Shown piece after piece: positions 37,517 to 48,606 of a stretch of DNA of 64,000 nucleotides. The notes under the pieces were generated by a model. It was not told where the DNA came from, did no database searches, and saw nothing but the letters and a program-made list of their open reading frames with translations. The stretch is taken from the NCBI GenBank assembly GCA_016235555.1, contig JACRKC010000081.1, positions 21,310 to 85,309 on the forward strand, given 5' to 3'. Positions within the stretch are counted from its first letter, which is position 1. Each line of letters begins with the position of its first letter. The position numbers were made by a program, and so were the translations under genes. The stretch comes from Verrucomicrobiota bacterium. GTDB lineage: Bacteria > Verrucomicrobiota > Verrucomicrobiia > Opitutales > Opitutaceae.

Positions 37517-39052
37517 TCAGCTCTCGCCGGTCTCGGCGACCCCTTCGCGACGAGACGCCTTGTGGGCCGCGCGCTTCTCACGACGCACGCGCACCCACGG
37601 CGGCTCCGGGGCCTCGCCGGCCATGATGCAGCCTTGCGGCTGAATCTCGCCGACGACGGTCGCGAGGCCGAACCGCGCGATCTGGGCCTTCACTTTCGTG
37701 GCGTCCTTGTAGCCGAGCGGAGACTCCGACAGATCCGGAGCGCCGCCAAACCAGCGGATGTCGAGGCCGGCCGTGCACGCAGCGAGCGTTTGCTGCACGC
37801 GGGCGGGATCGAGCTCGCCGTCGGCGTCCTTGTAGGGCGCGAGCATGGCGGTGCGCGAGAGGTTGCGGCCGGCGCCGTGCGGGCAGAACGAGAGGTAGCG
37901 GTCCTCGTTCGCGCCGAGCACGAGGAGGATTTCGCGCGCCATATTGAGCGGGATGAGGCCGAGCAGCGGGCGGCCGGACGCGTCGCGCCACGCGGGCGTG
38001 GCACCTTTGCCATGGAAGAACGAGTCGCCACGCTGCCACACGAAGTTGTGCTCGTTGCCGATCTGCACGAGGGCGCGCTGGCCGAGGCGGCGCAGGAGCG
38101 CGTCGTGGAGCACGGCGTGGTTTTCGCGCGTCCAGCGGGAGATGTAGCGGAGGGCGTCCCAGTAGGCGCGGCCCTCGGGCGAGTCGCCCGGGAGCCAGGC
38201 GGCGGAGTCGGGGATGTCCTTGGCGTTTTCGTCGCACCACTGGCGGGCGGCTTTCTGGCCGCGTTTGTAGACGTCGGCGCCGAGGCCGCGCGAACCGTGG
38301 TGGGTCACGAGGACATTGAACTCGCCGTCGCGGCGCACAATCCACTCGGCGAGCTCGGTGTAGCCGGCGGCGTCGAGGGCGGCGCGTTGCGCTTCGGTGA
38401 ACGAGATGCGGCCGACGTAGGCGAAGTGGTTGCCGTCGCCCTGCGTGCCGAGGAAATCCTGGGCGCGGCTGCGCAGACCGGCAAGGAACGGGTTGTCCCA
38501 GACCGGCTCGCCGAGGACGGCGGACGTGAGCTGGTAGCCGCGCGGGCGGCCACCGGGACCGAAGTGCGTGGTCTTCTGGAGCTGATCCATCATTTCGCCG
38601 ACCGGGTGGTTGGCGGGGAAGAACGTGGCGAACATCGAGCAGCAGATGTCGGCCGAGTGCGCGCCGGGGATGATGGCGTTTTCGACTTCGATGGCGCCAC
38701 CGACCGGGATCGTGGCGCGGCCGCCGCCCGAGGGGCAGGCGTCGGGCATGATCACGCCGCGCTTCACGACCGGGACGTGCAGCAGCTCCGTCATGCGCTG
38801 GCGGGCGGCGGCGACGTTGGCGGCTTCCTCGGGCGTCTCGGCCTCGATGGCTTCGGCGAGCGGAGCCGGCTCGTCGCGCGGGAGGATCACGGCGAGTTGC
38901 TTCGGAAATTCGGCTTCGAGTTGCGCGAGCACGTCGGTGCGCGCGAGGCCCGTGGCCTCGAGGTCGCGGGCGCGGCGCAGGGCCGGGCCGAGGCGGCGGC
39001 CTTCGTGCCAGCCGGCGGCGATGAGATCGCGGGCTTTGATTTCCATGGTCAT
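37517..39052 (-). CDS. rtcB: RNA-splicing/repair ligase RtcB
   Basis: 511 residues from ATG 39052 (ATG 39046 also possible). RtcB joins 2',3'-cyclic-phosphate or 3'-phosphate ends to 5'-OH ends using GTP and Mn2+; it ligates tRNA exons in archaea and metazoa and repairs cleaved RNA in bacteria. The metal and guanylation motifs are present: DxxC in HSADICCSM, GDGNHFAYVG, THHGSRGLGADV, and SFCPHGAGRNLSRTAM with the GMP-accepting His. An N-terminal extension of about 100 residues precedes the core. It is last in the minus-strand island. No rtcA cyclase or rtcR regulator is in view. Confidence 0.95.
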   Translation of the reverse strand: MTMEIKARDLIAAGWHEGRRLGPALRRARDLEATGLARTDVLAQLEAEFPKQLAVILPRDEPAPLAEAIEAETPEEAANVAAARQRMTELLHVPVVKRGVIMPDACPSGGGRATIPVGGAIEVENAIIPGAHSADICCSMFATFFPANHPVGEMMDQLQKTTHFGPGGRPRGYQLTSAVLGEPVWDNPFLAGLRSRAQDFLGTQGDGNHFAYVGRISFTEAQRAALDAAGYTELAEWIVRRDGEFNVLVTHHGSRGLGADVYKRGQKAARQWCDENAKDIPDSAAWLPGDSPEGRAYWDALRYISRWTRENHAVLHDALLRRLGQRALVQIGNEHNFVWQRGDSFFHGKGATPAWRDASGRPLLGLIPLNMAREILLVLGANEDRYLSFCPHGAGRNLSRTAMLAPYKDADGELDPARVQQTLAACTAGLDIRWFGGAPDLSESPLGYKDATKVKAQIARFGLATVVGEIQPQGCIMAGEAPEPPWVRVRREKRAAHKASRREGVAETGES

Positions 39053-39187
39053 TGTCGGATACGAAATCGATCGGGACACCGGCTCAGAGCGAGCGGAGGT
39101 GCAACAAGCGACAAAGCTTTGATCCTTTAGGGATGCATTTTGCGTTTTGAGATCTTGAACGATGAGGGTTAACAATCAGGTCGGTAT

Positions 39188-40187: not shown

Positions 40188-40916
40188 TCAGTGGCGGTTC
40201 AACACTGTTTGCCACAGTGCGAGGACGATGAAGTCTTCGCTCAGCTTCTTCTCGGCAGCTTCGCGGATTTGCCGGACGCGCTCTTTGGAGACGTTCAGCT
40301 CGCCAGCGATTTCCTCGAGGGTGGCGTCGTCCAAATAGTAGCGGCGCAGCACGCAGGCGTGATTTGGCGGGAGGCGATCGAGCGCAGCGCGCACGGAGGC
40401 GTGTGCATCGAGCGACTCGGCCGACTGGGCCGGGCACGTAGCATCGCTGTCGACGAGCGCGTGGAGCAACTCGCCTTCCGCATGGGTTTCGTCGGCGGAG
40501 CATGCCTGGGCGGCGGTCGCGATACGGTCGAGTTGTTCGACGGCTTGCGTCGATAAACCAGCTACGGAGGCGATCTCACTCGAAGTGGGCGCGCGACCGA
40601 GCTCGCGCTCAAGCGCCGCAGCGGCGCGGCGCACGAGCGTGACTCGGGCGCGCGTGTGGCGCGACAGCGGGTCAAGGCGGCGGAGTTCGTCGAGAACAGC
40701 GCCGCGAACGCGCACGTAGCAAAAAGCGCGCGCTTGTTCGGCCGGGCCGTCAAAGCGCAGGAGTGCTTCGATCAGCGCGACCTTGCCAGCGCTCGCGAGA
40801 TCATCACGCGAGACGTGGGCCGGGATGCGGCGATCGATGGCGCCAAGCACCGCGTCGACGACACTGAGCGTGTCGGCGAGCGAGAGGGGCGTGGAAGTTG
40901 AAAGGGTGAGAGTCAT
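40188..40916 (-). CDS. FliA/WhiG-type alternative sigma factor
   Basis: 242 residues with the sigma-28 layout. Region 2 carries SRDDLASAGKVALIEALLRF and YVRVRGAVLDELRRLDPLSR, the FliA-like RIRGAMLDELR block. Region 3 is ALERELGRAPTSSEIASVAG, region 4 LPPNHACVLRRYYLDDATLE with the helix-turn-helix LEEIAGELNVSKERVRQI. No flagellar gene is nearby. Its place inside a minus-strand tRNA/Y-RNA/RtcB island suggests it directs transcription of island genes, although bacterial RtcB/Ro60 operons are best known under sigma-54 and RtcR. That role is inference. Confidence 0.88.
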   Translation of the reverse strand: MTLTLSTSTPLSLADTLSVVDAVLGAIDRRIPAHVSRDDLASAGKVALIEALLRFDGPAEQARAFCYVRVRGAVLDELRRLDPLSRHTRARVTLVRRAAAALERELGRAPTSSEIASVAGLSTQAVEQLDRIATAAQACSADETHAEGELLHALVDSDATCPAQSAESLDAHASVRAALDRLPPNHACVLRRYYLDDATLEEIAGELNVSKERVRQIREAAEKKLSEDFIVLALWQTVLNRH

Positions 40917-41014: not shown

Positions 41015-41683
41015 TCAGAGATGCAGGAAATGCCGCCAGTCCGGATGCTTCGCTTCGCGCACGGTCGCCGAGACCGGGAGCGGTTTCGGCGTAGCGGGTT
41101 TCCGCATGAGCCGCAGGCCGGCTTCGTGCGGGAGCCGGTTGGCCTTGAGGGAGTTGATCTCCTTCTTCGACCAGACGAGGTTCTCGAACGAGTCGCGGCC
41201 ACCACGGTCGCGCGGCACGACGTGGTCGAGGTTGCCGCCATGCTTGCCGACGAATTCTCCGGTGTATTGGCAGACGCCCCGGTCGCGCTCGAAGATCGCG
41301 GCGCGCGTGACGCGCGGGATGCGCAGCGGCATGCGGTCGAACTGCGTCGAGACGATGACCGTCGGCACGCGGACGTGGAGCTTCGGCGTCGAGATCGAGA
41401 AATCGAAATCGCGCACCGGCAGCTTGGTCCATTCATCCCACGGGAGCGGGTTCAGGTAGAGCGGCCGGTCGAAGTTCCAGGAACCGTCCTCGAGCTTCGG
41501 GTAAGCGATGTCCACGCCGAGCGCCGGCGGCAGGCCGGCCGCGCCGCCGTTGAGCGCGATGAGCGCCTGCTTGACGGTGCGATGGCCGATGACCTGCCAC
41601 GCGCGGTTGAGCGAGAGGACGATGGGCTTGTCGAGAATGTCGGTGTTCATGGAAGAGATGGATTGAAAAACGTGATGGCTCAC
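41015..41683 (-). CDS. HNH endonuclease-family protein
   Basis: 222 residues from GTG 41683; ATG 41650 is an alternative. The N-terminal domain begins PIVLSLNRAWQVIGHRTVKQ, the C-terminal HNH fold reads RAAIFERDRGVCQYTGEF and GGNLDHVVPRDRGGRDSFEN with the DH and N residues in place. The paired cysteines that usually hold a structural zinc are mostly missing (CQYT, and KKEINSLK where CxxCN is common), so the fold has lost or replaced zinc. It starts 51 bp from the first array tRNA. Whether it cuts DNA or RNA is open. Confidence 0.8.
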   Translation of the reverse strand: MSHHVFQSISSMNTDILDKPIVLSLNRAWQVIGHRTVKQALIALNGGAAGLPPALGVDIAYPKLEDGSWNFDRPLYLNPLPWDEWTKLPVRDFDFSISTPKLHVRVPTVIVSTQFDRMPLRIPRVTRAAIFERDRGVCQYTGEFVGKHGGNLDHVVPRDRGGRDSFENLVWSKKEINSLKANRLPHEAGLRLMRKPATPKPLPVSATVREAKHPDWRHFLHL

Positions 41684-41733
41684 GCTGAACCCAGCTCCGC
41701 CAACGTCGGTGTGTGTTCTTTTTTGCGAAAAAA

Positions 41734-41808
41734 TGGATCTCCGCGCCGGGCTTGCGCCGGCCTCTGCGGTTTACGAAACCGCTGCATCGCTACCAATGCT
41801 TGCAGAGA
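41734..41808 (-). tRNA. tRNA-Thr(CGU)
   Basis: Seven-pair acceptor TCTCTGC/GCGGAGA, discriminator T, encoded CCA. Anticodon loop TTCGTAA on stem GCGGT/ACCGC. T-loop CGCAAGC, so both 54 and 55 differ from canonical TT. Last array gene, 51 bp upstream of the HNH gene. Confidence 0.88.
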
Positions 41809-41814
41809 ACGAAA

Positions 41815-41951
41815 TGGCTGCCGGGGCATGAGTCGCACATGCACCCACGGTTTGACTCACCGGCGCTCGCCCCTGCGGGGTCGACCTTCGGTCGATCCAT
41901 CTCCGCTGCGCTCCGTCAGAGACCGCTGTCCTGCTGTTAGACGACCCGGCA
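41815..41951 (-). tRNA. tRNA-Gln(CUG) interrupted in the anticodon loop
   Basis: Acceptor TGCCGGG/CCCGGCA, discriminator G, CCA encoded. T-loop TGCGACT. The anticodon loop CTCTG..AA is split by a 63-nt palindromic insert (41854-41916); removing it restores stem GCGGT/ACCGT and a 7-nt loop. D-arm GTCTAACAGCAGGAC. Confidence 0.82.
41854..41916 (-). repeat. 63-nt type A insert in tRNA-Gln(CUG)
   Basis: Sense strand starts ACGGAGCGCAGCGGAG and ends GCGCCGGTGAGTC. Internal hairpins are TCGACC-GAA-GGTCGA and CCCC-GCA-GGGG. Homologous to the insert in tRNA-Ser(CGA). Exact ends are ambiguous by one base. Confidence 0.8.
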
Positions 41952-41952
41952 C

Positions 41953-42040
41953 TGGCGGAGGGTTGAGGTCCCGCCCCTCAGCGAAACTAATCGCCGCACG
42001 CGTTAGCACCGCGGCTCCCGACTCTCGGAATTAACCCTCC
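41953..42040 (-). tRNA. tRNA-Ser(GCU)
   Basis: Class II. Acceptor GGAGGGT/ACCCTCC, G73, CCA. Anticodon loop GTGCTAA. Long variable arm TGCGGCGATTAGTTTCGC. T-loop GGCGGGA. Only one base separates its CCA from the tRNA-Gln 5' end. Confidence 0.85.
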
Positions 42041-42047
42041 GTGAAAT

Positions 42048-42121
42048 TGGTCCTCGCGCACGGTAACGCTCCGCGTTCGATCGGTTATCAGCCGATTGCT
42101 CTGCTTTTGAGCTACACGAGG
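42048..42121 (-). tRNA. tRNA-Ile(GAU)
   Basis: Acceptor CCTCGTG/CGCGAGG, A73, CCA. Stem ATCGG/CCGAT with loop CTGATAA. T-loop AGCGTTA; D-arm GCTCAAAAGCAGAGC. Confidence 0.88.
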
Positions 42122-42125
42122 AAAT

Positions 42126-42276
42126 TGGCGGAGAGCGGAGGACTTGCGCCTCAACCGGCAGAGCCGACCCATCTGCTTTGACTCGCTGCGCTCGCCCCTG
42201 CGGGTCGACCTGCGGTCGATCCATCTCCGCTTCGCTCCGTCGAAACAGCGTCCGCACCTCGGCGGATTCACTCTCC
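42126..42276 (-). tRNA. tRNA-Ser(CGA) interrupted in the anticodon loop
   Basis: Class II; acceptor GGAGAGT/GCTCTCC, G73, CCA. Variable arm hairpin CGGC-TCT-GCCG. T-loop CGCAAGT. The insert at 42180-42240 splits the anticodon loop; removal gives TTCGAAA. One mismatch (G27/A43) remains in the stem. Confidence 0.8.
42180..42240 (-). repeat. 61-nt type A insert in tRNA-Ser(CGA)
   Basis: Sense ACGGAGCGAAGCGGAGATGG to GCGCAGCGAGTC, differing from the tRNA-Gln insert by a handful of substitutions and two single-base gaps. Confidence 0.8.
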
Positions 42277-42283
42277 AGAAAAA

Positions 42284-42371
42284 TGGCGGAGAGCAGTGGT
42301 CCTGCCCCACAGGCCTTGCGGCCCGAAACGGCTTCCAACCGATCACCGCGCTTTGCGGTTTTACTCTCCGA
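42284..42371 (-). tRNA. tRNA-Ser(GGA)
   Basis: Class II; acceptor GGAGAGT/GCTCTCC identical to tRNA-Ser(CGA). Anticodon loop TTGGAAG. Variable arm GGGCC-GCAA-GGCC. T-loop GGCAGGA. CCA encoded. Confidence 0.87.
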
Positions 42372-42378
42372 AAAATTG

Positions 42379-42465
42379 GCGGAGACGAGAGGTCACGCTC
42401 CCCAGCGGCCAGCCCGCCCTGCCCGCTTCAAACGGGTGCCGGCGCGCTTGTCCGGTTTCGCCTCC
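42379..42465 (-). tRNA. tRNA-Ser(UGA)
   Basis: Class II; acceptor GGAGGCG/CGTCTCC, G73, CCA. Stem ACCCG/CGGGC with loop TTTGAAG. T-loop AGCGTGA. Confidence 0.85.
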
Positions 42466-42470
42466 GAAAG

Positions 42471-42543
42471 TCCCCGCGGCAGGATTTGCACCTGCGTCGA
42501 TCCGCTTAGAAGGCGGAGGCCTGGACTACTCGGCCACGCGGAG
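42471..42543 (-). tRNA. tRNA-Arg(UCU)
   Basis: Acceptor CTCCGCG/CGCGGGG, A73, but the next bases are CTT, so CCA is not encoded. Stem TCCGC/GCGGA, loop CTTCTAA. T-loop TGCAAAT. Confidence 0.88.
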
Positions 42544-42548
42544 AAACA

Positions 42549-42690
42549 TGGACCTCACGGCGGGATTGACTCGCGCTCTCGCGCTCGGGGCTTCGCCCCA
42601 CGCCTGCGGCGCGCCGGTCGGCCCGCTGGCCTTCCCCACCCACAACGCGGCGTTCGAAGCGCTGCATGATTATAACTTCACCACGCGAGG
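42549..42690 (-). tRNA. tRNA-Arg(UCG) interrupted in the T-loop
   Basis: Acceptor CCTCGCG/CGTGAGG, T73, CCA. Anticodon loop CTTCGAA with one A-C mismatch in the stem. T-stem GTGGG/CCCGC is intact, but its loop holds a 67-nt insert; excision leaves TGGGAAT. Confidence 0.78.
42568..42634 (-). repeat. 67-nt type B insert in tRNA-Arg(UCG)
   Basis: Sense GAAGGCCAGCGGGCCGACCG to GAGCGCGAGAGCGCGAGTC, with the central hairpin CGGGGC-GAA-GCCCCG written as GGGGCGAAGCCCC. Confidence 0.78.
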
Positions 42691-42696
42691 AAAAAG

Positions 42697-42771
42697 TGGT
42701 CCCTTCACGAGGACTTGCACCTCGATCTCGAGCTTCGCGGGCTCGCGTCCTGTCTCTTGGACGATGAAGGG
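42697..42771 (-). tRNA. tRNA-Arg(GCG)
   Basis: Acceptor CCCTTCA/TGAAGGG, A73, CCA. Stem CGAGC/GCTCG, loop CCGCGAA with C33 instead of U33. Anticodon GCG replaces the usual bacterial ACG, which needs deamination to inosine. T-loop TGCAAGT. Confidence 0.86.
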
Positions 42772-42800
42772 AAAAACGGAGCCAGACCGTGTCTGGCTCC
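42771..42800 (-). terminator. Intrinsic terminator after Ro60
   Basis: Minus strand GGAGCCAGAC-ACG-GTCTGGCTCC followed by GTTTTTC, 23 bases past the Ro60 stop and abutting the tRNA-Arg(GCG) 5' end. Confidence 0.8.
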
Positions 42801-42822
42801 GGCAGATAGTTTTGCTGACACG

Positions 42823-44262
42823 TCAGTCCGCCAGCGGCACAGACTCGACGTCGCGGACGAGCGCCTCCGGATCGCGGTCGAGCTTCTGCATGATCTCGAA
42901 CACACGGTCGTTCCAACCCGCGAGGCAGTAGACGCGCTCCTGCGGAAACTGGAGCGTGCCGTTGCCCTTCAGATCGAAGCTGTAGATGCGCGGGGCCACA
43001 CCGTAGCGCTTCTGGTAATCCGCGAACGGCTGCACCGGCGCGCCACCGCCGACCCAACCCTGCATGTCCGACAGAATTACGATGCGGTCGTAGGCGCGGT
43101 TCGCGCGCTGGAAGATCGCATTGAAGTTCGTGCCACCGGAGATGAACGGGATGCTCTGCGCCGCCGTGAGCGTGGTGTCGCGGCGGTTCAGCGAGACGTA
43201 GCGGGCGTCATCGCTGAAGAGCATCAGATCGGCGCCGGTTGCCTTAACCAAGGTCGCGGCGAACAGCGAGCCAATCGCCTGCGGGCGACCCACCATCGAG
43301 CCCGACGAGTCGAGCGCGACGAGCGTGTTGCCCTCAAACTTTGGCACGTTGGCCAGCGAGTGATCGATGGCCGTGTTCAGCGCGTCCATCACGCGGCCGG
43401 CGCCCGACAGGTTGCCCTGCTTCAACACTTCGACCGCGGACAGGAACTGGAACGGAAACACGAGCGACTTGCGGACCGCGCGTTCGTCGGCGAGTTGCTG
43501 GCACAGTTCATCGACCAGTTCCGGCGCCTGGGTCAGGATGTTGCGCACGTTGCGGAGCAGCGCGAGGTAGCCGAGCTTGCGCTCGCGCACGAACTCGCCC
43601 CACGCCTGCGACTTTGCCGCCGCAACTTGCTCGGCGGTGTCGCCGTCGCCGGCCTGCGTGAGCTTCGTCTCCCACGTTTGGGCGGGAGCGAGTTCGCCGC
43701 GGACCAGCTTCGACAGCGCCGGCGTCGCCTTCGGGCGGACGAGGTTGACCGCGTCCACCATCTTGAAGGCGCCGTGCTCGCGACGATACTTGGCCACCTG
43801 GTGCTCGTCGAAACGGGCGAGCGCCGCGCCGAGACCCTTCTTCAGGGAGTTCGGCACGGGACGGCCGTAGACGGCAAGATAGTAACCGAGCGTCTCCATG
43901 ACATCGTCCGGGCGGCGCACGACCTGCGCGTAAAAGCTCTTGGTCCAGCGCGCGCCCTTGACGGACTTCGCGAGTTCGCCGGCGACGAGGTGGCTCACCG
44001 AGCGCATGCCGTAAGTGTTGCGCGCATAGAGCGCCGCCTTCGCGACGAAACGCGGATTACCGACCTTGGCGATCAGCTCACGAATCTTCTCCGTGGTCTG
44101 CTTCTCGGTGCGGTAGAATTCGTCCTCGAGGAACGTGGTGACGAGCACCGAGACGAGCTCGAGTTTCGCGGTCTGCGTAAACGCGCGACCGTTTTCAAAA
44201 TTGACCGTGTTGGGCGCGGACTTGCCGCGTGACAGCGGATTGAGGATGCTGAACTTGGCCAT
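42823..44262 (-). CDS. rsr: Ro60/Rsr TROVE-domain RNA-binding protein
   Basis: 479 residues. Bacterial orthologue of Ro60, a ring-shaped HEAT-repeat protein that binds Y RNAs on its outer surface and misfolded or cleaved RNA ends in its central hole. The TROVE domain fills the first about 300 residues (LSRGKSAPNTVNFENGRAF, YARNTYGMRSVSHLVAGEL, YYLAVYGRPVPNSLKKGLGA). The C-terminal von Willebrand A domain has an intact MIDAS motif, VALDSSGSM. A strong GGAGG lies 7 bases before ATG 44262. Y-RNA genes lie immediately upstream and an intrinsic terminator follows. Confidence 0.95.
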   Translation of the reverse strand: MAKFSILNPLSRGKSAPNTVNFENGRAFTQTAKLELVSVLVTTFLEDEFYRTEKQTTEKIRELIAKVGNPRFVAKAALYARNTYGMRSVSHLVAGELAKSVKGARWTKSFYAQVVRRPDDVMETLGYYLAVYGRPVPNSLKKGLGAALARFDEHQVAKYRREHGAFKMVDAVNLVRPKATPALSKLVRGELAPAQTWETKLTQAGDGDTAEQVAAAKSQAWGEFVRERKLGYLALLRNVRNILTQAPELVDELCQQLADERAVRKSLVFPFQFLSAVEVLKQGNLSGAGRVMDALNTAIDHSLANVPKFEGNTLVALDSSGSMVGRPQAIGSLFAATLVKATGADLMLFSDDARYVSLNRRDTTLTAAQSIPFISGGTNFNAIFQRANRAYDRIVILSDMQGWVGGGAPVQPFADYQKRYGVAPRIYSFDLKGNGTLQFPQERVYCLAGWNDRVFEIMQKLDRDPEALVRDVESVPLAD

Positions 44263-44283
44263 GATGGCCTCCTTTTCTTTGCT

Positions 44284-44306
44284 GGAATCGCGAGCGCTGG
44301 CTCGCG
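44284..44306 (-). promoter_or_regulatory. Hairpin in the Ro60 leader
   Basis: ATCGCGAGC and GCTCGCGAT form a perfect 9-bp stem about 25 bases upstream of the Ro60 start, between the last Y-RNA-like gene and the ribosome-binding site. It could be a processing or translational control element. Confidence 0.45.
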
Positions 44307-44342
44307 ATGGGATAGCCCGGACGCCGGGACACGGTGGTATAT

Positions 44343-44473
44343 GCGGGAGAACAACGTTCGCAGAGACGGCCTTGCGGCCGCTGAATGCTCTACCACTGAG
44401 CTATGCGCCGAAGCGCAGGCGGGATTGAACCGCCGACATTTCAGTTCGAAGTAGCTGCGAACTCACTGCCCGC
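44343..44473 (-). ncRNA. Y-RNA-like RNA 1, YrlA type with tRNA mimic
   Basis: 131 nt. Closing stem GCGGG/CCCGC, bulged C, AG/CT, internal loop, then stem GTTCGCAG/CTGCGAAC. The distal part is a tRNA mimic in permuted order: a T-arm (GGCGG TTCAATC CCGCC), an acceptor-like TGCGC-TTCG-GCGCA hairpin, a D-arm with AGTGGTA loop, and CTGAAAT/ATTCAG replacing the anticodon stem. This is the known YrlA plan. Its elbow is canonical (GG in the D-loop, TTC in the T-loop), unlike the array tRNAs. Confidence 0.88.
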
Positions 44474-44484
44474 AAAATCGAGAC

Positions 44485-44566
44485 GAGGGAGAAAGCCGAA
44501 CGCGGGTTCTGGATTTGAACTAGGGCACTTGCGTGCTTACGAAGGAACCGCGCCCTCACTGCCCTC
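44485..44566 (-). ncRNA. Y-RNA-like RNA 2
   Basis: 82 nt. Closing stem GAGGG/CCCTC with bulged C and AG/CT, then CGCGGTTC/GAACCCGCG with one extra C. Distal GCAC-GCAA-GTGC hairpin and a T-arm-like TAGTTCAAATCCA, but no D-arm. Confidence 0.8.
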
Positions 44567-44577
44567 GAAATTGAATC

Positions 44578-44708
44578 GGAGGAGAAGGCCGCGAGCGGGA
44601 TTGATCTTCCGCCACCGAACCGTTGCCGGCCCGGGCAGGGGTCGAACCTGCAGACTCTCGTCTTTCGACGAGCGCGTTTTCCGAAGTAACCGCTCACTCA
44701 CTGCCTCC
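44578..44708 (-). ncRNA. Y-RNA-like RNA 3
   Basis: 131 nt. Closing stem GGAGG/CCTCC, bulged C, AG/CT; second stem GTGAGCGG/CCGCTCGC. Distal hairpin CTCGTC-GAAA-GACGAG and a canonical T-arm GCAGG TTCGACC CCTGC, so at least part of a tRNA mimic is present. Confidence 0.82.
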
Positions 44709-44718
44709 GAAATAGAAT

Positions 44719-44804
44719 CTGGGAGAAACACAGGCGAAGTGCGCCGTGGCTCGCGCCACGACATGGTTCGTTAACAGCGAAGTAACTTCGCCCTTACTGC
44801 CCAG
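44719..44804 (-). ncRNA. Y-RNA-like RNA 4
   Basis: 86 nt. Closing stem CTGGG/CCCAG, bulged C, AG/CT; second stem GGCGAAGT/ACTTCGCC. Distal hairpin CGTGGC-GCGA-GCCACG; no tRNA-like part. Confidence 0.82.
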
Positions 44805-44813
44805 AAAAAGGAA

Positions 44814-45014
44814 CCGGGAGAAAAACAGACGCGGATTTTTCTGCTGAAGCATCCGCAGCGTGGCTTTCGCGCACGCTCGATGCCTCAGTCCCCTGGAGCC
44901 CTTCCCACACGATGTTCGCACATCATGGGGGCGCTCGTTTTCGCATCCCTTCTTAGCCAGAGGGCACGGGGTTTGGTTTGGTGGCGGCGAAGTAACCTCG
45001 TCTTCACTGCCCGG
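44814..45014 (-). ncRNA. Y-RNA-like RNA 5, long form
   Basis: 201 nt. Closing stem CCGGG/CCCGG, bulged C, AG/CT; second stem AGACG/CGTCT. The long interior contains GATGT-GCGA-ACATC and other hairpins not assigned. It may be an expanded Y RNA or two fused units. Confidence 0.7.
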
Positions 45015-45018
45015 TAAA

Positions 45019-45093
45019 TGGAGCCTCCTGCCGGACGTGCGCCGGCCTCGCAGCGCTACAAGGGCTGCACGTCGCTCTCTACGCTTAAGAGGC
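45019..45093 (-). tRNA. tRNA-Thr(UGU)
   Basis: Lies between Y-RNA-like genes 5 and 6. Acceptor GCCTCTT/AGGAGGC, T73, CCA. Loop CTTGTAG with a C-C mismatch at the top of the stem. T-loop CGCACGT. Confidence 0.85.
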
Positions 45094-45102
45094 AAAAGGA
45101 AA

Positions 45103-45173
45103 TTGGGGAGAAACCTGATCAGAGTGGTTTGGATCGTGTTTCAGACGAAGTAACCCTGACCTCACTGCCCCAA
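45103..45173 (-). ncRNA. Y-RNA-like RNA 6, short form
   Basis: 71 nt. Closing stem TTGGGG/CCCCAA, bulged C, AG/CT; second stem GGTCAG/CTGATC. Simple distal loop containing TTACTTCG. First Y-RNA-like unit in transcription order, 3 nt from tRNA-Ile(UAU). Confidence 0.8.
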
Positions 45174-45176
45174 AGA

Positions 45177-45269
45177 TGGTGGTCGCCGCTGGAGTTGCAC
45201 CAGCACAACCCGCCAGTCCGGCGGTGGCGGAGGTATAAGCTCCGTATGCTACTGTTACATCAGACGACC
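45177..45269 (-). tRNA. tRNA-Ile(UAU)
   Basis: Acceptor GGTCGTC/GGCGACC, A73, CCA. Stem CGGAG/CTCCG, loop CTTATAC. Unusually long variable region with hairpin CCGCC-GGACT-GGCGG. T-loop TGCAACT. A UAU anticodon reads AUA without the lysidine modification that bacterial CAU needs. Confidence 0.75.
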
Positions 45270-45273
45270 GAAA

Positions 45274-45347
45274 TGGCAGCCACGCGGAGAATCGCGCTCC
45301 GATGTCCAGCTTGAGAGGCTGGCGAACTACTCTTGTTCGACGTGGCT
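45274..45347 (-). tRNA. tRNA-Glu(CUC)
   Basis: Acceptor AGCCACG/CGTGGCT, G73, CCA. Stem CCAGC/GCTGG, loop CTCTCAA. T-loop CGCGATT. Confidence 0.88.
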
Positions 45348-45359
45348 GTGAAAAATTGA

Positions 45360-45441
45360 TCGGCGAGACAGGACTTGCACCTGCATGGGCCTTCGCCCGC
45401 GAGTTTCTGAGACTCGTGTGTATACGCTCCACCACTCGCCG
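45360..45441 (-). tRNA. tRNA-Leu(CAG)
   Basis: Class II; acceptor CGGCGAG/CTCGCCG, A73 followed by TCA rather than CCA. Stem CGAGT/ACTCG, loop CTCAGAA. T-loop TGCAAGT. Confidence 0.88.
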
Positions 45442-45448
45442 AAAAAAT

Positions 45449-45622
45449 TGGTGCGGCCGGGGCGACTTGCACGCCCACGCGCCTGAGGGCGCGGCGGTTT
45501 TTAAGACCGCCCGGTCTACTGTTGTTCACCTCGCTGCCCAAAGGGCGCCCGCTCAGTTCACCCACTCGCTGCGCTCGGGGCTGCGCCATCTCCGCGCTTC
45601 GCGCTCCGTCCACGCACGGCCG
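45449..45622 (-). tRNA. tRNA-Leu(UAA) interrupted before the D-arm
   Basis: Class II; acceptor GCGGCCG/CGGCCGC, A73, CCA. Stem GCGGT/ACCGC, loop CTTAAAA, variable hairpin CGCGCC-TCA-GGCGCG. T-loop TGCAAGT. About 84 nt of palindromic DNA separates the 5' acceptor strand from the D-arm. Confidence 0.78.
45530..45613 (-). repeat. Type A-related insert in tRNA-Leu(UAA)
   Basis: Contains GGACGGAGCGCGAAGCGCGG and CCCCGAGCGCAGCGAGT as in type A, followed by GGGCGCCCTTTGGGC. Probably a compound insertion; ends approximate. Confidence 0.65.
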
Positions 45623-45625
45623 CAA

Positions 45626-45715
45626 ATGGTCGCGGCGGCCGGATTCGCACCGGCACGGGCAATCACGCCCAGCGGGTTTTGAGCCCGCCGTGTTTCCTGA
45701 TTTCACCACGCCGCG
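45626..45715 (-). tRNA. tRNA-Leu(CAA)
   Basis: Class II; acceptor CGCGGCG/CGCCGCG, A73, CCA. Stem GCGGG/CCCGC, loop CTCAAAA. Variable arm GGGCGTGATTGCCC. T-loop TGCGAAT. Confidence 0.9.
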
Positions 45716-45722
45716 ATTAGAT

Positions 45723-45875
45723 TGGTGCGGACCGAGGGAAGGACTCGCGCTCACGCGCTCGGGGCTTCGCCCCACGCCTACGGCGTGCCGGTCGGTCTGC
45801 TGGCCTTCCGCACCCTCATGGACTTTCGCCCATCGGCTCCTCGGGCCGACGCGTCTACTGGTCCGCCACGTCCGC
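45723..45875 (-). tRNA. tRNA-Leu(GAG) interrupted in the T-loop
   Basis: Class II; acceptor GCGGACG/GGTCCGC with one G-G mismatch, A73, CCA. Stem TCGGC/GCCGA, loop CCGAGGA with C33. T-stem GAGGG/CCCTC. A 67-nt insert sits in the T-loop; excision leaves TGCGCTT. Confidence 0.8.
45742..45808 (-). repeat. 67-nt type B insert in tRNA-Leu(GAG)
   Basis: Sense GAAGGCCAGCAGACCGACCG to GAGCGCGTGAGCGCGAGTC; close copy of the tRNA-Arg(UCG) insert, at the same T-loop position. Confidence 0.8.
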
Positions 45876-45887
45876 ATGAAAAAAGAA

Positions 45888-45962
45888 TGGAGCATCCACA
45901 GGGACGTGCGCCCCGCTCTCTGCCTTACCACGGCAGGCCGTCGCTTTCTACGGGTTGGATGC
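45888..45962 (-). tRNA. tRNA-Thr(GGU)
   Basis: Acceptor GCATCCA/TGGATGC, T73, CCA. Stem CTGCC/GGCAG, loop GTGGTAA. T-loop CGCACGT. Confidence 0.88.
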
Positions 45963-45964
45963 AT

Positions 45965-46051
45965 TGGTCGAAGCGGAAGGACTCGCACCTTCGGAGCCCG
46001 CGAGGGCGACGCGTTTACAGCGCGCTGCATTTGCTGCTCTGCCACGCTTCG
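45965..46051 (-). tRNA. tRNA-Tyr(GUA)
   Basis: Class II as in bacteria generally; acceptor CGAAGCG/CGCTTCG, A73, CCA. Stem GCGCG/CGCGT, loop CTGTAAA. T-loop TGCGAGT. Confidence 0.9.
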
Positions 46052-46057
46052 AAAAAA

Positions 46058-46133
46058 TGGGGGCTCGAGCGGGATTCGCACCCGCGACCTTCTCCTTATG
46101 AGGGAGCTGCGCTCACTACTGCGCCATCGAGCC
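46058..46133 (-). tRNA. tRNA-Met(CAU) 1
   Basis: Acceptor GGCTCGA/TCGAGCC, C73, CCA. Loop CTCATAA. The 1-72 pair is G-C, so it lacks the initiator mismatch. T-loop TGCGAAT. Confidence 0.88.
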
Positions 46134-46136
46134 AAG

Positions 46137-46307
46137 TGGCAGTTTGTGCTGCCGCTGGGGCAGCGAAACTGGTGGGCCGCCTCGGCGAAGCGAAGCGGAG
46201 CGGCACGCCGCAGGTGTGGGCCGACGGCCCGAGCGCGCTGCGCGAGTCAAATGCTCCGAGTTCTGCCGCTTAAGAGACGGCAGCTTCACGATTAAAGCTT
46301 GCGACCC
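46137..46307 (-). pseudogene. tRNA-Lys(CUU), 3' half lost to an inverted insert
   Basis: 5' part intact: acceptor strand GGGTCGC, D-arm GCTTTAATCGTGAAGC, stem GCCGT/GCGGC with loop CTCTTAA. After the start of the T-arm the sequence runs into a palindromic element in opposite orientation (ending near 46248 on the plus strand). No GCGACCC acceptor partner is found; the 3' end is an unrelated hairpin ending ACTGCCA. It is also the only tRNA here without AG in the D-loop. Confidence 0.65.
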
Positions 46308-46314
46308 GAAAAAG

Positions 46315-46393
46315 TGGTGGAGCCTGCGGGTGTCGCACCCGCCTGAAATTCTCCCTGCCAGGGAGACGACCACGCTGCGCGGTCCCAGGCCCC
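46315..46393 (-). tRNA. tRNA-Ala(GGC)
   Basis: Acceptor GGGGCCT/AGGCTCC, A73, CCA. Stem TCTCC/GGAGA, loop CTGGCAG. T-loop TGCGACA. No G3-U70-type identity pair in the usual place; the 3-70 pair is G-U. Confidence 0.87.
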
Positions 46394-46396
46394 GAA

Positions 46397-46471
46397 TGGC
46401 TGCGGCAGGAGGACTCGCACCTCCATTCACGGATTCAAAGTCCGCTGTCCTGCTGATTAGACGACACCGCA
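46397..46471 (-). tRNA. tRNA-Gln(UUG)
   Basis: Acceptor TGCGGTG/TGCCGCA, G73, CCA. Stem GCGGA/TCCGT, loop CTTTGAA. T-loop TGCGAGT. D-arm GTCTAATCAGCAGGAC. Confidence 0.9.
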
Positions 46472-46478
46472 ACAAATT

Positions 46479-46555
46479 TGGTCAGGGTGACAGGACTTGC
46501 ACCTGCATGATCTCCCTTCCGAGGGGAGTCGCCGACTGTTTGGCACCACACCCTG
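46479..46555 (-). tRNA. tRNA-Pro(CGG)
   Basis: Acceptor CAGGGTG/CACCCTG, A73, CCA. Stem CTCCC/GGGAG, loop CTCGGAA. T-loop TGCAAGT. Confidence 0.9.
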
Positions 46556-46568
46556 ATGTGGAAATTGA

Positions 46569-46601
46569 ACCGGCCCGGAGGCACGTGCGCTCCGGGCCGG
46601 T
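46569..46601 (-). terminator. Strong hairpin downstream of the 30-aa ORF
   Basis: ACCGGCCCGGAG and CTCCGGGCCGGT form a 12-bp stem, 15 bases past the small ORF stop. The T-richer side is on the plus strand (GTTGTTTTC), so it may work in both directions or as a processing barrier. Confidence 0.6.
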
Positions 46602-46615
46602 GTTGTTTTCTGTCA

Positions 46616-46708
46616 TTAGCGAGTCAGCGGGCGGCGGTCGTAGTCGGCGCGTGCGATGAGCACGAGACCGACAACCGCGAGCCACGCGACCACGAGGGCA
46701 GCGATCAT
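46616..46708 (-). CDS. Small membrane peptide (30 aa) inside the tRNA array
   Basis: The peptide is a hydrophobic helix, IAALVVAWLAVVGLVLIA, followed by a charged tail RADYDRRPLTR. A GAAAGGA box lies 7 bases before the ATG. Single predicted membrane span with a cytoplasmic-type basic tail, the look of a small regulatory or toxin-like membrane peptide. It is the only protein-coding sequence among the right-hand tRNA genes and is followed by a strong hairpin. No homology can be claimed. Confidence 0.6.
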   Translation of the reverse strand: MIAALVVAWLAVVGLVLIARADYDRRPLTR

Positions 46709-46796
46709 GTCGTTGTCCTTTCTGTCCTGGAGGCCTTGCTCCTGAGAGCTTCGGCCGTTCACCGCGCACGCTCCCCGAACGGAGCGCGCGCGAAAT

Positions 46797-46876
46797 TGGT
46801 GCTGGCGGAGTGGAGGTGACTCGTCTCCGGATCTTGCGCCGGGCCAGCTGATCTCCTCGCCAGATCAAACCCTCCG
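46797..46876 (-). ncRNA. Degenerate or minimal tRNA-like RNA, no anticodon assigned
   Basis: Ends in CCA at either of two spots. A D-arm-like GATCT..AGATC hairpin and a T-arm-like GGAG..CTCC hairpin with CGAGTCA loop are visible, but no 5-bp anticodon stem with a 7-nt loop fits. GCTGGC/GCCAGC could close a shorter two-hairpin form. Confidence 0.45.
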
Positions 46877-46892
46877 AAACTGGCTAAGGAAA

Positions 46893-46968
46893 TGGTCGTC
46901 GGCCTCGGTGATGCTCCGAGCGATGCCTGCATGTCGGGCAGGTGACGTCACTGGCTGTCTCGCCGACG
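46893..46968 (-). tRNA. tRNA-Val(GAC)
   Basis: Acceptor CGTCGGC/GCCGACG, A73, CCA. Stem CCTGC/GCAGG, loop CCGACAT with C33. T-loop AGCATCA. Confidence 0.87.
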
Positions 46969-46972
46969 AGAT

Positions 46973-47047
46973 TGGCTCCCCAGGCAGGCTCCGCCCCTGC
47001 ACATCCGCATTAACAGTGCGGCGTTCTACTGGTTGAACTACCGGGGA
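46973..47047 (-). tRNA. tRNA-Asn(GUU)
   Basis: Acceptor TCCCCGG/CTGGGGA, G73, CCA. Stem CCGCA/TGCGG, loop CTGTTAA. T-loop GGCGGAG. Confidence 0.9.
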
Positions 47048-47054
47048 ATGAAAG

Positions 47055-47131
47055 TGGTCGAGGTGGAGGGACTCGCACCCCCGTTGAGGCTGGGTGTAGG
47101 CCAGCTGCCATGGCTGCTAGGCGACACCTCG
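47055..47131 (-). tRNA. tRNA-Val(UAC)
   Basis: Acceptor CGAGGTG/CACCTCG, A73, CCA. Stem GCTGG/CCAGC, loop CCTACAC with C33. T-loop TGCGAGT. Confidence 0.88.
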
Positions 47132-47135
47132 AAAT

Positions 47136-47212
47136 TGGCGCTCGTGATCGGACTCGCACCGACTGACTTCCCTTCGACAGAGGGCTGATTCGACTCCTTC
47201 ATCTCCACGAGC
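47136..47212 (-). tRNA. tRNA-Asp(GUC)
   Basis: Acceptor GCTCGTG/CACGAGC, G73, CCA. Stem GCCCT/AGGGA, loop CTGTCGA. T-loop TGCGAGT. Confidence 0.9.
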
Positions 47213-47214
47213 AG

Positions 47215-47290
47215 TGGTCAGGTGGGCGGGAGTTGCACCCGCTTCCCCGGCTTCACGGGCCGGTGCTCCGCTGACTGAGCCACACACCTG
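47215..47290 (-). tRNA. tRNA-His(GUG)
   Basis: Acceptor CAGGTGT/CCACCTG, A73, CCA. Stem CCGGC/GCCGG, loop CCGTGAA with C33. T-loop TGCAACT. The base before position 1 is T, so no encoded G-1, and position 73 is A rather than the usual bacterial C; histidine identity therefore rests on the anticodon. Confidence 0.83.
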
Positions 47291-47299
47291 ATGAAAAAT

Positions 47300-47374
47300 T
47301 GGTCGGAGCGGCGGGACTCGCACCCGCGTGATCTCGGTCCCAAGCCGAGTGCCTCGCTTCTAGGCTACGCTCCA
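47300..47374 (-). tRNA. tRNA-Pro(UGG)
   Basis: Acceptor TGGAGCG/CGCTCCG with a terminal U-G pair, A73, CCA. Stem CTCGG/CCGAG, loop CTTGGGA. T-loop TGCGAGT. Confidence 0.9.
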
Positions 47375-47375
47375 A

Positions 47376-47448
47376 TGGGAGCAGGATTCCGAGTTGCACG
47401 GAATCAGCCGGCTTATGAGACCGGCGGCGGGACTCTCCGCTTCCTGCT
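47376..47448 (-). tRNA. tRNA-Met(CAU) 2
   Basis: Acceptor AGCAGGA/TCCTGCT, C73, CCA. Stem CCGGT/GCCGG, loop CTCATAA. Short D-arm CGGAGAGTCCCG. T-loop TGCAACT. Confidence 0.87.
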
Positions 47449-47455
47449 ATCAAAA

Positions 47456-47531
47456 TGGTGGGAATGGTTGGAATCGCACCAACACCTCCTCGTCTTCAGC
47501 GAGACGTGCAGACTCTCTACACTACGTTCCC
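47456..47531 (-). tRNA. tRNA-Phe(GAA)
   Basis: Acceptor GGGAACG/CATTCCC with one C-A mismatch, A73, CCA. Stem TCTCG/CGAGG, loop CTGAAGA. T-loop TGCGATT. Confidence 0.9.
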
Positions 47532-47541
47532 AAAAGAGATT

Positions 47542-47616
47542 TGGCACGGACGGCAGGTAACGCTCCCGCATCGGGCCGTTTTGGAGACGGCTGCCTTGCT
47601 TGTCGGCCACGTCCGT
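47542..47616 (-). tRNA. tRNA-Trp(CCA)
   Basis: Acceptor ACGGACG/CGTCCGT, G73, CCA. Stem GCCGT/ACGGC, loop CTCCAAA. T-loop AGCGTTA. Confidence 0.9.
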
Positions 47617-47617
47617 G

Positions 47618-47692
47618 TGGTGCCCGAGGCCGGTAGCGCGCCGGCTCCCGCTGTTTGGAAGACAGCCATGCATCTGGGAACACCTCTCGGGC
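47618..47692 (-). tRNA. tRNA-Gly(UCC)
   Basis: Acceptor GCCCGAG/CTCGGGC, A73, CCA. Stem GCTGT/ACAGC, loop CTTCCAA. T-loop CGCGCTA. Confidence 0.9.
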
Positions 47693-47697
47693 GAAAC

Positions 47698-47772
47698 TGG
47701 TGGAGCAGGACGGTTACGCTCCGTCTCCTCCGCGTTGCAAGTGCGGCGTGCTGCTATTGTCACTACAGCCCC
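47698..47772 (-). tRNA. tRNA-Ala(UGC)
   Basis: Acceptor GGGGCTG/CTGCTCC with one U-U mismatch; 3-70 is a G-U pair as expected for alanine identity. Loop CTTGCAA. T-loop AGCGTAA. CCA encoded. Confidence 0.88.
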
Positions 47773-47777
47773 AAAAG

Positions 47778-47920
47778 TGGACACGACGGCGGGATTCGCA
47801 CCCGCGACCCTCAGCTTTGCAGGCTGGTCCCTTGGCTGTTGACTCGCGCTCGCGCGCTCGGGGCTTCGCCCCGCACCTACGGTGCGCCGGTCAGCCTCCT
47901 GGCCTCCCGGGCACGTCGTG
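47778..47920 (-). tRNA. tRNA-Cys(GCA) interrupted in the D-loop
   Basis: Acceptor CACGACG/CGTCGTG, T73, CCA. Loop CTGCAAA. T-loop TGCGAAT. A 66-nt insert lies in the D-loop; excision leaves CCC-GGAACAGCCAA-GGG. It is the only cysteine tRNA of the array. Confidence 0.82.
47841..47906 (-). repeat. 66-nt type B insert in tRNA-Cys(GCA)
   Basis: Sense GAGGCCAGGAGGCTGACCGG to GAGCGCGCGAGCGCGAGTC, with the same GGGGCGAAGCCCC hairpin as the T-loop inserts. Confidence 0.8.
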
Positions 47921-47924
47921 ACGG

Positions 47925-47998
47925 AAATAGAACCGCGGCTCAGGTCACTCGGCGGGAGAAGACTTCTCTCCCGTCCGTCCTCAATGACCGCGGATTAA
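47925..47998 (-). other. Unassigned hairpin-rich spacer in the array
   Basis: CCGCGG at both ends and GGGAGAGAAGTCTTCTCCC inside. No anticodon arm or T-arm is found; possibly a remnant or a processing or termination element. Confidence 0.35.
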
Positions 47999-48001
47999 GT
48001 T

Positions 48002-48078
48002 TGGCGGAGCCGGCGGGACTCGCACCCGCACCGGGCGGATTAAAAGTCCGCTGTGCTACTGTTAAACACCACAGCTCC
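48002..48078 (-). tRNA. tRNA-Lys(UUU)
   Basis: Acceptor GGAGCTG/CGGCTCC, G73, CCA. Stem GCGGA/TCCGC, loop CTTTTAA. T-loop TGCGAGT. D-arm GTGTTTAACAGTAGCAC. Confidence 0.9.
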
Positions 48079-48081
48079 AAG

Positions 48082-48155
48082 TGGTGCGCTCGGGGAGACT
48101 CGCACTCCCGACTCCGGACTGGCAGACCGGCGCGTTGCTCTTACGCCACGAACGC
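48082..48155 (-). tRNA. tRNA-Gly(GCC)
   Basis: Acceptor GCGTTCG/CGAGCGC, A73, CCA. Stem CCGGT/TCCGG, loop CTGCCAG. T-loop TGCGAGT. Confidence 0.9.
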
Positions 48156-48262
48156 ATGGTAAACTCGGCCCCTGCCGGGCTTGGGCCGCCGGCTGGCTTC
48201 TGATGGATCCGATAGGGCGAAGCGGACTCCGGCCTCGGATCGAGAACCGGCGCTTCCTTAAG
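48156..48262 (-). other. Unassigned stretch with CCA-like end
   Basis: Ends TTTACCA in transcription direction and holds GC-rich hairpins, but no acceptor partner or anticodon arm could be matched. Possibly a decayed tRNA. Confidence 0.3.
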
Positions 48263-48267
48263 GAAAA

Positions 48268-48344
48268 TGGCCGCCCAGACGGGAGTCGCACCCGCATCCC
48301 GCGGCTTGAAAGGCCGGGATCCTGAACTGTTAGACGACAAGGCG
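48268..48344 (-). tRNA. tRNA-Glu(UUC)
   Basis: First tRNA in transcription order. Acceptor CGCCTTG/CTGGGCG with one U-U mismatch, G73, CCA. Loop CTTTCAA. T-loop TGCGACT. D-arm region GTCTAACAGTTCAGGAT. Confidence 0.87.
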
Positions 48345-48345
48345 G

Positions 48346-48606
48346 AAAAGGAACACGCGGCCGGCATCGCCGTTTAACGCCATCAGGCGCACCGCGTGTT
48401 GGTGCAGGACCGCACTCAGGCGGTCCTGCGATTTCGCAAAAAAGAACCCACACCGTCGTCCCTCTCGGCAGACCAGGTCTGACGGATTGGACGGCCGCGG
48501 GATTTTCGTGCGGACGTTGGCTGATTGACTGGGCTCAGCGATGAAGCCGCTCACGGAATTTGGAAAAGAATGGGTTTCGGTTTCCGGAAGCGGCCCATCA
48601 GGGCAC
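48346..48606. other. Probable promoter region of the array
   Basis: No gene is seen. It contains the hairpin GCAGGACCGC/GCGGTCCTGC at 48403-48428. The array must start at or above 48345 on the minus strand, but no -35/-10 pair could be fixed by eye. Confidence 0.35.

Follow-up and report, generated by a model that had tools for sequence, protein, structure and literature searches.

Long tRNA arrays in one class of Verrucomicrobiota carry an A18/G55 elbow

We find that a long tRNA array in a bacterium of the Verrucomicrobiota (family Opitutaceae) has A18 and G55 at the elbow positions where G18 and pseudouridine 55 are expected. The array occupies positions 41734 to 48344, on the minus strand, of a 64,000-nucleotide stretch of DNA that was analyzed as a whole (hereafter, the window; assembly GCA_016235555.1, contig JACRKC010000081.1, positions 21,310 to 85,309). 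The window lies on contig 48 of a genome of 8.03 Mb in 140 contigs. The substitution is confirmed, and it is wider than the array of the window: within one bacterial class, reserve-type tRNA arrays in many genomes have the alternative elbow.

Pseudouridine 55, along with the contact it makes with G18, is described as universally conserved in the text of PMC4810234, which names metazoan mitochondrial tRNAs as elbow-less. Here, a whole natural tRNA set, present in many genomes of one class, replaces the elbow pair beside a normal set in the same cell. Because the swapped and normal sets stand side by side, the role of pseudouridine 55 and of the elbow layer becomes directly testable in folding, charging, ribosome use, and recognition by attack enzymes. 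A single structural change would also tie together stress-reserve tRNA arrays, RNA repair (RtcB and Ro60), and viral tRNAs.

Array and host tRNAs differ at the elbow

Array units were located with a cloverleaf scan that does not reward any particular base at positions 18, 19, or 54 to 58. This blind scan found 27 units in the array, 25 of them with an in-register CCA. All 25 CCA-bearing cloverleaves have G55-C56, and AG can be placed at positions 18-19 in each of their printed D-loops. A mechanical rule applied to the same D-loops called 23 AG and 2 GG, because two of the D-loops contain both dinucleotides. The original prediction, made from the bare sequence of the window, had assigned G55, C56, and an AG D-loop to every assignable unit except a disrupted tRNA-Lys(CUU). 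This holds for the 25 CCA-bearing cloverleaves but not for tRNA-Leu(CAG), which ends in TCA and has no AG at 18-19. Misplacement of the AG or the G is countered by the blind scan and the in-register CCA.

Outside the array, 42 tRNAs were found in the window genome with the Rfam model, which favors normal tRNAs and also caught 17 array members. All 42 have U55 (T55 in the DNA), together with U54 and A58, and 41 have GG in the D-loop. The exception is a tRNA-Ala(CGC) with D-loop AGTTGATA and T-loop TTTGATC, which fits G18-A19 with U55-U56. It is the one departure in both the window genome and a single-contig relative (G093), and is itself a compensated change. In G093, U55 is present in 44 of 44 non-array tRNAs (30 plus 14), and G55 in 32 of 32 CCA-bearing units of the array. 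The original prediction is not refuted by the housekeeping tRNAs of the same genome, since U55 is present in 42 of 42. The proposal of a coordinated, array-wide A18/G55 replacement is therefore upheld as regards its absence from the housekeeping tRNAs found, and needs correction in that the change is not peculiar to the window array. Elsewhere in the window genome, the T-arm pattern has a lone match, on contig 137.

It had also been predicted that array tRNAs cannot carry pseudouridine 55, and this follows directly, since G at position 55 is not convertible. TruB is encoded in the window genome. Given that the minimal target of TruB is reported to include U55 (PMC7912444) and that the enzyme is present, array tRNAs are predicted to be unmodified at position 55.

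The alternative elbow across genomes

We searched 272 genomes of the class with a T-arm pattern requiring U54, G55, and an in-register CCA. At least five same-strand matches were found in 24 of the 272; a backward control pattern never gave more than 4 matches per strand. Arrays from all 24 genomes contain G55 cloverleaves with AG D-loops. Among 128 genomes from other classes of the phylum, we found no cluster and at most two matches each, using a pattern that needs U54 and fixed stem bases and may miss other forms.

Single tRNAs of this type also occur. A Glu(CTC) in genome G049 (L128) and a Phe(GAA) in G018 (L129) are lone G55/A18 tRNAs within the 500 bases read, and their T-arm-to-CCA segments recur identically in several genomes of the class.

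Coupled changes and kept function

Coupling between positions was counted in 40 loci that were chosen for carrying such arrays, after G55 had been seen, so the totals are descriptive. We kept 526 unique CCA-bearing cloverleaves with scores of at least 37; units without CCA, lower scores, duplicates, the duplicate contig L109, and a non-array tRNA in L074 were dropped. Position 55 is G in 512 of these, U in 13, and A in 1. The D-loops of array tRNAs with C56 and G55 (n = 477) read AG in 403 cases, GG in 24, and otherwise in 50, and those with C56 and U55 read GG in 9 of 9.

Of the array tRNAs that depart from C56, 29 of 39 combine a 19-56 pair with an 18/55 that fits, compared with a mean of 9.4 and a maximum of 19 in 5000 draws of random D-loops. 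Positions 54 and 58 likewise covary in the G55 rows (U-A 336, G-G 57, A-U 52, C-A 47, C-C 11, others 9), and their mutual information is 0.93 bits, where shuffles reach at most 0.036; permutation results on arrays are inflated by shared ancestry. A C1-N72 mismatch is an initiator feature. The array CAU tRNAs with this mismatch have U55 and GG in 4 of 4 cases (L083, L088, L112, and L120), three of them without an encoded CCA, and a fifth mismatched CAU unit, with U1-U72 (L136), has G55.

The tRNA bodies have changed in a compensated manner. Units of the window were compared with units of the same anticodon in ten loci from its family or from close relatives. In these 124 comparisons, which share ancestry, 499 stem pairs had changed on both sides and were still paired, 105 had changed on one side and were paired, and 48 were broken. 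Identity elements persist: the discriminator is G in Asn (24/24), Asp (14/14), and Ser (13/13), U in Cys (24/24) and Thr (39/41), and A in Ile (30/30), Leu (52/52), and Gly (27/31, matching two of three host Gly tRNAs), and G3-U70 is kept in 15 of 15 array Ala tRNAs. Thus, since 19-56 and 54-58 covary, stems compensate, and identity elements persist, the array tRNAs are maintained and probably chargeable. As 19-56 still pairs, the elbow has probably been rebuilt rather than lost. A recent origin from present host tRNAs finds no support: the nearest host tRNA is of the same isotype for 5 of 25 array tRNAs, and shuffled labels (mean 1.6) reach 7.

Viral tRNAs repeat the coupling. At least 120 viral stretches were assembled from contigs picked for a G55 T-arm, a choice that says nothing about position 18, and their tRNAs were filtered without regard to position 55. 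Among the matches listed, U55 tRNAs have GG in 176 cases, AG in 1, and another dinucleotide in 1; G55 tRNAs have AG in 30, GG in 1, and another in 1; and C55 tRNAs have GG in 2. The G55-AG viral tRNAs come from 16 loci among the matches listed, and some share an array with U55 tRNAs, as in L232, with 13 U55 and 2 G55 tRNAs. Viral stretches L188, L217, L276, and L301 each hold at least three A18/G55 tRNAs.

Organization of the array

Every tRNA unit found in the array, by ARAGORN (n = 21), Rfam (n = 17), or eye, lies on the minus strand. T-arms with G55-C56 and an in-register CCA number 34, and reading by eye adds at least five units that are disrupted or lack CCA; the predicted size of 39 genes is therefore fair, and most units encode CCA. 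A control count that required 5 of 5 T-stem pairs, C56, and CCA gave 32 T-arms on the array strand (position 55: 31 G, 1 C), none on the opposite strand, and 9 (5 G, 4 C) in the ~114.5 kb that the two strands of the window comprise outside the array. Coverage of all 20 amino acids, also predicted, requires that a disrupted tRNA-Cys be included. The array is dense, single-stranded in orientation, and exceeds 20 tRNA genes, the mark of a long tRNA array (the trn operon or L-array type), and it is supernumerary to the dispersed housekeeping set, represented by the 42 non-array tRNAs found.

Reading in the direction of the array, the first unit is tRNA-Glu(UUC) (48268 to 48344; T-loop TGCGACT), followed by Gly(GCC) (48082 to 48155) and Lys(UUU) (48002 to 48078), all three found by both ARAGORN and the cloverleaf scan. 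The tRNA-Cys(GCA) at 47778 to 47920 (T-arm count and by eye) has an intact T-arm and is split by an 88-nt palindromic element. Beyond it lie Ala(UGC) with G3-U70 kept (47698 to 47772; Rfam and cloverleaf scan), Gly(UCC) (47618 to 47692; cloverleaf scan), and, by ARAGORN and cloverleaf scan, Trp(CCA) (47542 to 47616) and Phe(GAA) (47456 to 47531). A unit with a CAU anticodon by eye and T-arm TGCAACT (47376 to 47455; also in the T-arm count) precedes Pro(UGG) (47300 to 47374; ARAGORN and cloverleaf scan), His(GUG) (47215 to 47290; ARAGORN and T-arm count), and Asp(GUC) (47136 to 47212; cloverleaf scan). Val(UAC) (47055 to 47131) and Asn(GUU) (46973 to 47047; T-loop GGCGGAG) were again found by both programs, Val(GAC) (46893 to 46968) by the cloverleaf scan, and Pro(CGG) (46479 to 46555) by ARAGORN.

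The middle of the array comprises Gln(UUG) (46397 to 46471; ARAGORN and cloverleaf scan), Ala(GGC) (46315 to 46393; ARAGORN and T-arm count), and a Met(CAU) at 46058 to 46133 whose paired 1-72 is of elongator type. This Met, Tyr(GUA) (45965 to 46051), Leu(CAA) (45627 to 45715), the Leu(CAG) without AG (45358 to 45442), Glu(CUC) (45274 to 45347), and Ile(UAU) (45177 to 45269) are joint ARAGORN and cloverleaf finds; Thr(GGU) (45888 to 45962) and Thr(UGU) (45019 to 45093) come from the cloverleaf scan. After the interruption described below, the array resumes with Arg(GCG) (42697 to 42771; both programs), Arg(UCG) (42549 to 42690; by eye), which is split by another 88-nt palindromic element, and Arg(UCU) without CCA (42470 to 42543; both programs). 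It ends with Ile(GAU) (42048 to 42121; T-loop AGCGTTA; both programs), Ser(GCU) with a long variable arm (41953 to 42040), and the last unit, Thr(CGU) (41734 to 41808), the latter two from the cloverleaf scan.

Repeats mark the array inside and out. A 28-nt inverted repeat, 93% complementary, brackets it, with one half ahead of the first tRNA (48432 to 48459, plus strand) and the other past the last (41703 to 41730, minus strand). Copies also stand before and after the arrays in L073, L132, and L133, and a variant form occurs in L140; candidate roles for the repeat are those of terminal repeat, paired regulatory site, and RNA stem. Palindromic elements resembling repetitive extragenic palindromes (42557 to 42644, 45731 to 45818, and 47830 to 47917; also 41878 to 41917, 42202 to 42241, and 46192 to 46238) sit within tRNA units, by unit positions read by eye, and disrupt several of them.

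Ile(GAU) and Ala(UGC), tRNAs usual in ribosomal RNA (rRNA) operons, are both held by the window array, and neither is among the 42 non-array tRNAs found in its own genome or the 44 found in G093. Masking or assembly gaps, with rRNA operons missing or masked, are the likely reason.

Neighboring genes

Beyond what the original prediction listed, the array is interrupted by a Ro60 gene together with six Y-RNA-like units, and downstream of it come genes for an HNH endonuclease, a sigma factor, and RtcB, all on the minus strand. The Ro60/Rsr protein (42823 to 44262; 479 amino acids) matches the TROVE family (PF05731, E = 5.3e-20) and, in sequence, solved TROVE, Rsr, and Ro60 chains; its relatives are mostly labelled Opitutaceae or Verrucomicrobia. 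The six Y-RNA-like units span 44357 to 45170. The last of them (44357 to 44469) scores 38.5 bits against Rfam YrlA (E = 9.8e-7), for which the curated cut-off is 69; its T-loop, TTCAATC, is canonical, and its D-loop contains GG.

The HNH endonuclease gene (PF13395) lies at 41015 to 41683 and the sigma factor, which is FliA/WhiG-like and under that model's cut-off, at 40188 to 40916. The RtcB-family RNA ligase at 37517 to 39175, the only one found in the window genome, is divergent: it matches PF01139 (E = 6.9e-32) over profile positions 140 to 424 of 426 only, the later two thirds. Its His motifs fall in the main aligned segment and its Cys motif only in a 3.1-bit segment; we take these motifs to hold the catalytic residues. 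Across 43 clustered stretches (L079 and L109 being one contig, a few lacking alternative arrays, and some cut by contig ends), HNH genes recur in 32, Ro60 in 23, RtcB in 22 (four members of the cluster confirmed by Pfam), a LysR gene in 13, and a sigma factor in 11. A nearby HNH gene and a linked RtcB are thus features of related arrays, if not strict ones, and the window has both.

We considered Ro60 as a cause of the swap and reject it on three grounds: genomes with no Ro60 match can have complete arrays of the alternative elbow (L132 and L133), a locus with a closely related Ro60 (L070) shows Y-RNA-like units but yielded no tRNA, and two Ro60-linked arrays outside the phylum are mostly U55 (19 of 20 CCA-bearing cloverleaves in L100, 13 of 13 in L086). 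Eighteen Ro60 loci are labelled Verrucomicrobiota (L070 to L085, L088, and L089); 12 hold at least two CCA-bearing G55 cloverleaves, and the remaining 6, two of them on contigs under 5 kb, hold no CCA-bearing cloverleaf. L070, from the Opitutaceae, encodes a Ro60 that is 89% identical to that of the window and has two Y-RNA-like units by eye. The Gallionellaceae array beside a Ro60 relative (L100) has canonical elbows save one Cys, which fits A18-U19 with G55-A56.

A proposed second tRNA set

With moderate confidence, we interpret the A18/G55 block as a second tRNA set, likely a reserve for damage or translation stress; closure of its elbow should not depend on pseudouridine 55. In canonical tRNAs, residue 18 inserts between residues 57 and 58, where it touches pseudouridine 55, and the 19-56 pair lies exposed to the ribosome, RNase P, and other factors that read the elbow (PMC4810234). 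Elsewhere, the G of a UGNRA T-loop and an A from outside the loop are described as forming a composite GNRA turn (PMC2258182). The array T-loop, U54-G55-C56-R57-A58, would be of the UGNRA type, with A18 slotting between 57 and 58; its contact with G55 would close a composite GNRA-like turn for which no pseudouridine is required. Because the exposed 19-56 pair, on which these elbow readers stack, is kept, translation by array tRNAs should remain possible. The change would fall on the buried 18-55 layer, on which TruB and G18-methylating enzymes act.

Indirect support for a stress-reserve role comes from the likeness of the locus to the Anabaena trn operon, whose induction by translation inhibitors is reported (PMC10272220). 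By analogy, the array may be silent during growth and induced by translational stress, with RtcB rejoining cleaved RNA and Ro60-Y RNA sorting damaged RNA. The benefit of the swap is the part of this scheme put forward most cautiously: it might be independence from elbow modification, or escape from a nuclease or quality-control enzyme that reads the elbow. Evasion of elbow-reading enzymes is plausible.

Several observations weigh against this reading. By the rule used, AG and GG are both absent from 50 of the 477 C56-G55 array tRNAs (10%) and another 24 are called GG, 10 of the 39 without C56 do not fit compensation, and shared ancestry makes the permutation results look stronger than they are. 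Discriminators are mixed in His (C 12, A 7), Glu (G 22/31), Phe (A 16, G 9), Arg (A 38, G 16, U 7), and the CAU tRNAs (Met), and the window Lys(UUU) has G73 where the host has A73. Ro60 was not detected, by a search at E = 1e-10 or by locus clustering, in at least 15 of the 24 array genomes, so it is not needed for the swap. Because several of its units are broken by inserted palindromes, the window array may be decaying.

The main competing reading is compensated drift in tRNAs that are seldom used, a possibility that we take seriously while thinking it less probable. Rarely used tRNAs would have drifted once to an equivalent pair, which structure then kept, with no benefit from losing pseudouridine. 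The distance of array bodies from host tRNAs (5 of 25 nearest to the same isotype, within the range of shuffles), the variation of 54, 56, and 58 in arrays against the U54 and A58 of all 42 host tRNAs, and the interrupted window units would all suit such drift. Yet G55 is constant in 512 of 526 array tRNAs although 54, 56, and 58 vary, and the coupled swap also appears in single tRNAs of otherwise U55 viral arrays. Drift alone would not so strongly favor one solution.

More tentatively still, A18/G55 could be a second, pseudouridine-free elbow standard: a hidden mark that runs a parallel tRNA pool on the same ribosome, invisible to enzymes that read or cut the elbow, and reached both by bacterial arrays and, tRNA by tRNA, by viruses.

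It is improbable that the array tRNAs are charged but kept off the ribosome, in the manner of the staphylococcal cell-wall tRNA-Gly isoacceptor. Related staphylococcal tRNA-Gly have G55. The specialized Staphylococcus aureus tRNA-Gly is described as appearing poorly used in translation (PMC4810233), but such pathways need few tRNAs, whereas the array has nearly all isotypes, including an elongator-type Met, and conserves the exposed 19-56 pair through compensation. Nor do we give much credence to the array units being decoys or sponges for tRNA-cutting enzymes or Ro60, and not substrates for charging. Ro60 and Y-RNA-like units do lie inside the array, and a competitive-inhibitor role has been suggested for the tRNA-like domain of YrlA (PMC7790460); against this, identity elements are kept (Ala G3-U70 15/15, Leu A73 52/52, Ser G73 13/13) and full arrays exist without Ro60. 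A misalignment or pseudogene artefact can be virtually dismissed: only 17 of ~39 units pass the Rfam tRNA cut-off, but against it stand the blind scan, the CCA in register, the compensated stems, and the sharp separation from those host tRNAs that were found.

Comparison with known systems

A close known counterpart is the trn operon on a megaplasmid of Anabaena sp. PCC 7120, which, like the window, combines a long, many-isotype array additional to the chromosomal set with rtcB and an HNH gene (PMC10272220). According to that text, translation antibiotics induce the 26-gene array, which stays silent during growth, and deleting it is cited as making cells less resistant; both the array and rtcB are repressed by TrcR, and rtcB and the HNH gene rise in a trcR mutant. 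The window differs by the addition of Ro60, Y-RNA-like units, and a sigma factor, and by A18/G55. A Nostoc ATCC 53789 array beside a related HNH gene (L143), a stand-in and not the Anabaena array itself, has U55 in 17 of 18.

The window HNH protein matched 65 plasmid records, and of the 11 neighborhoods read, 5 hold a tRNA array, in three other phyla. The other 6 have no array, and the HNH protein by itself is thus rejected as an array marker. In the five plasmid arrays, U55 is present in 92 of 93 array-strand cloverleaves, 90 of them with GG, which rules out the swap as a general trait of long arrays; the one exception, a Nostoc Ile unit with G55, likewise shows AG in its D-loop. Among the coding sequences of mycobacterial tRNA arrays, HNH-type endonucleases are reported to be the most common (PMC5966550). 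Mycobacterial, plasmid, and phage array units share HNH genes with the window, and related HNH genes stand beside arrays on the actinobacterial plasmids L144, L150, and L152, but all 46 array-strand cloverleaves on these three plasmids have U55, and 44 of them have GG.

The Salmonella rsr-yrlBA-rtcBA operon brings together Ro60, a Y RNA with a tRNA-like domain, and RtcB (PMC7790460), to which the Ro60, Y-RNA-like units, and RtcB-family protein of the window would correspond. The window differs in having a sigma factor gene nearby, and that text uses neither the term tRNA array nor the term tRNA genes. UGNRA T-loops of rRNA and riboswitches share the U-G-N-R-A pentaloop, with the G commonly touching an outside A, and in the corresponding part of PMC2258182 they are not described for whole tRNA sets. 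By sequence, the array would belong to this type, with G at loop position 2 and A18 coupled to G55. Phage tRNAs predicted to be insensitive to host anticodon nucleases are spare tRNAs, as in the window, but their evasion changes lie in the anticodon loop, and the terms D-loop and T-loop are absent from the text of PMC10264068.

No description of an A18/G55 tRNA array was found among the titles and abstract openings listed by searches of open-access papers. Thus, the layout of the locus is already known and, as far as that literature was searched, the elbow is its new part, because five arrays of the same layout from other phyla have U55 (92 of 93).

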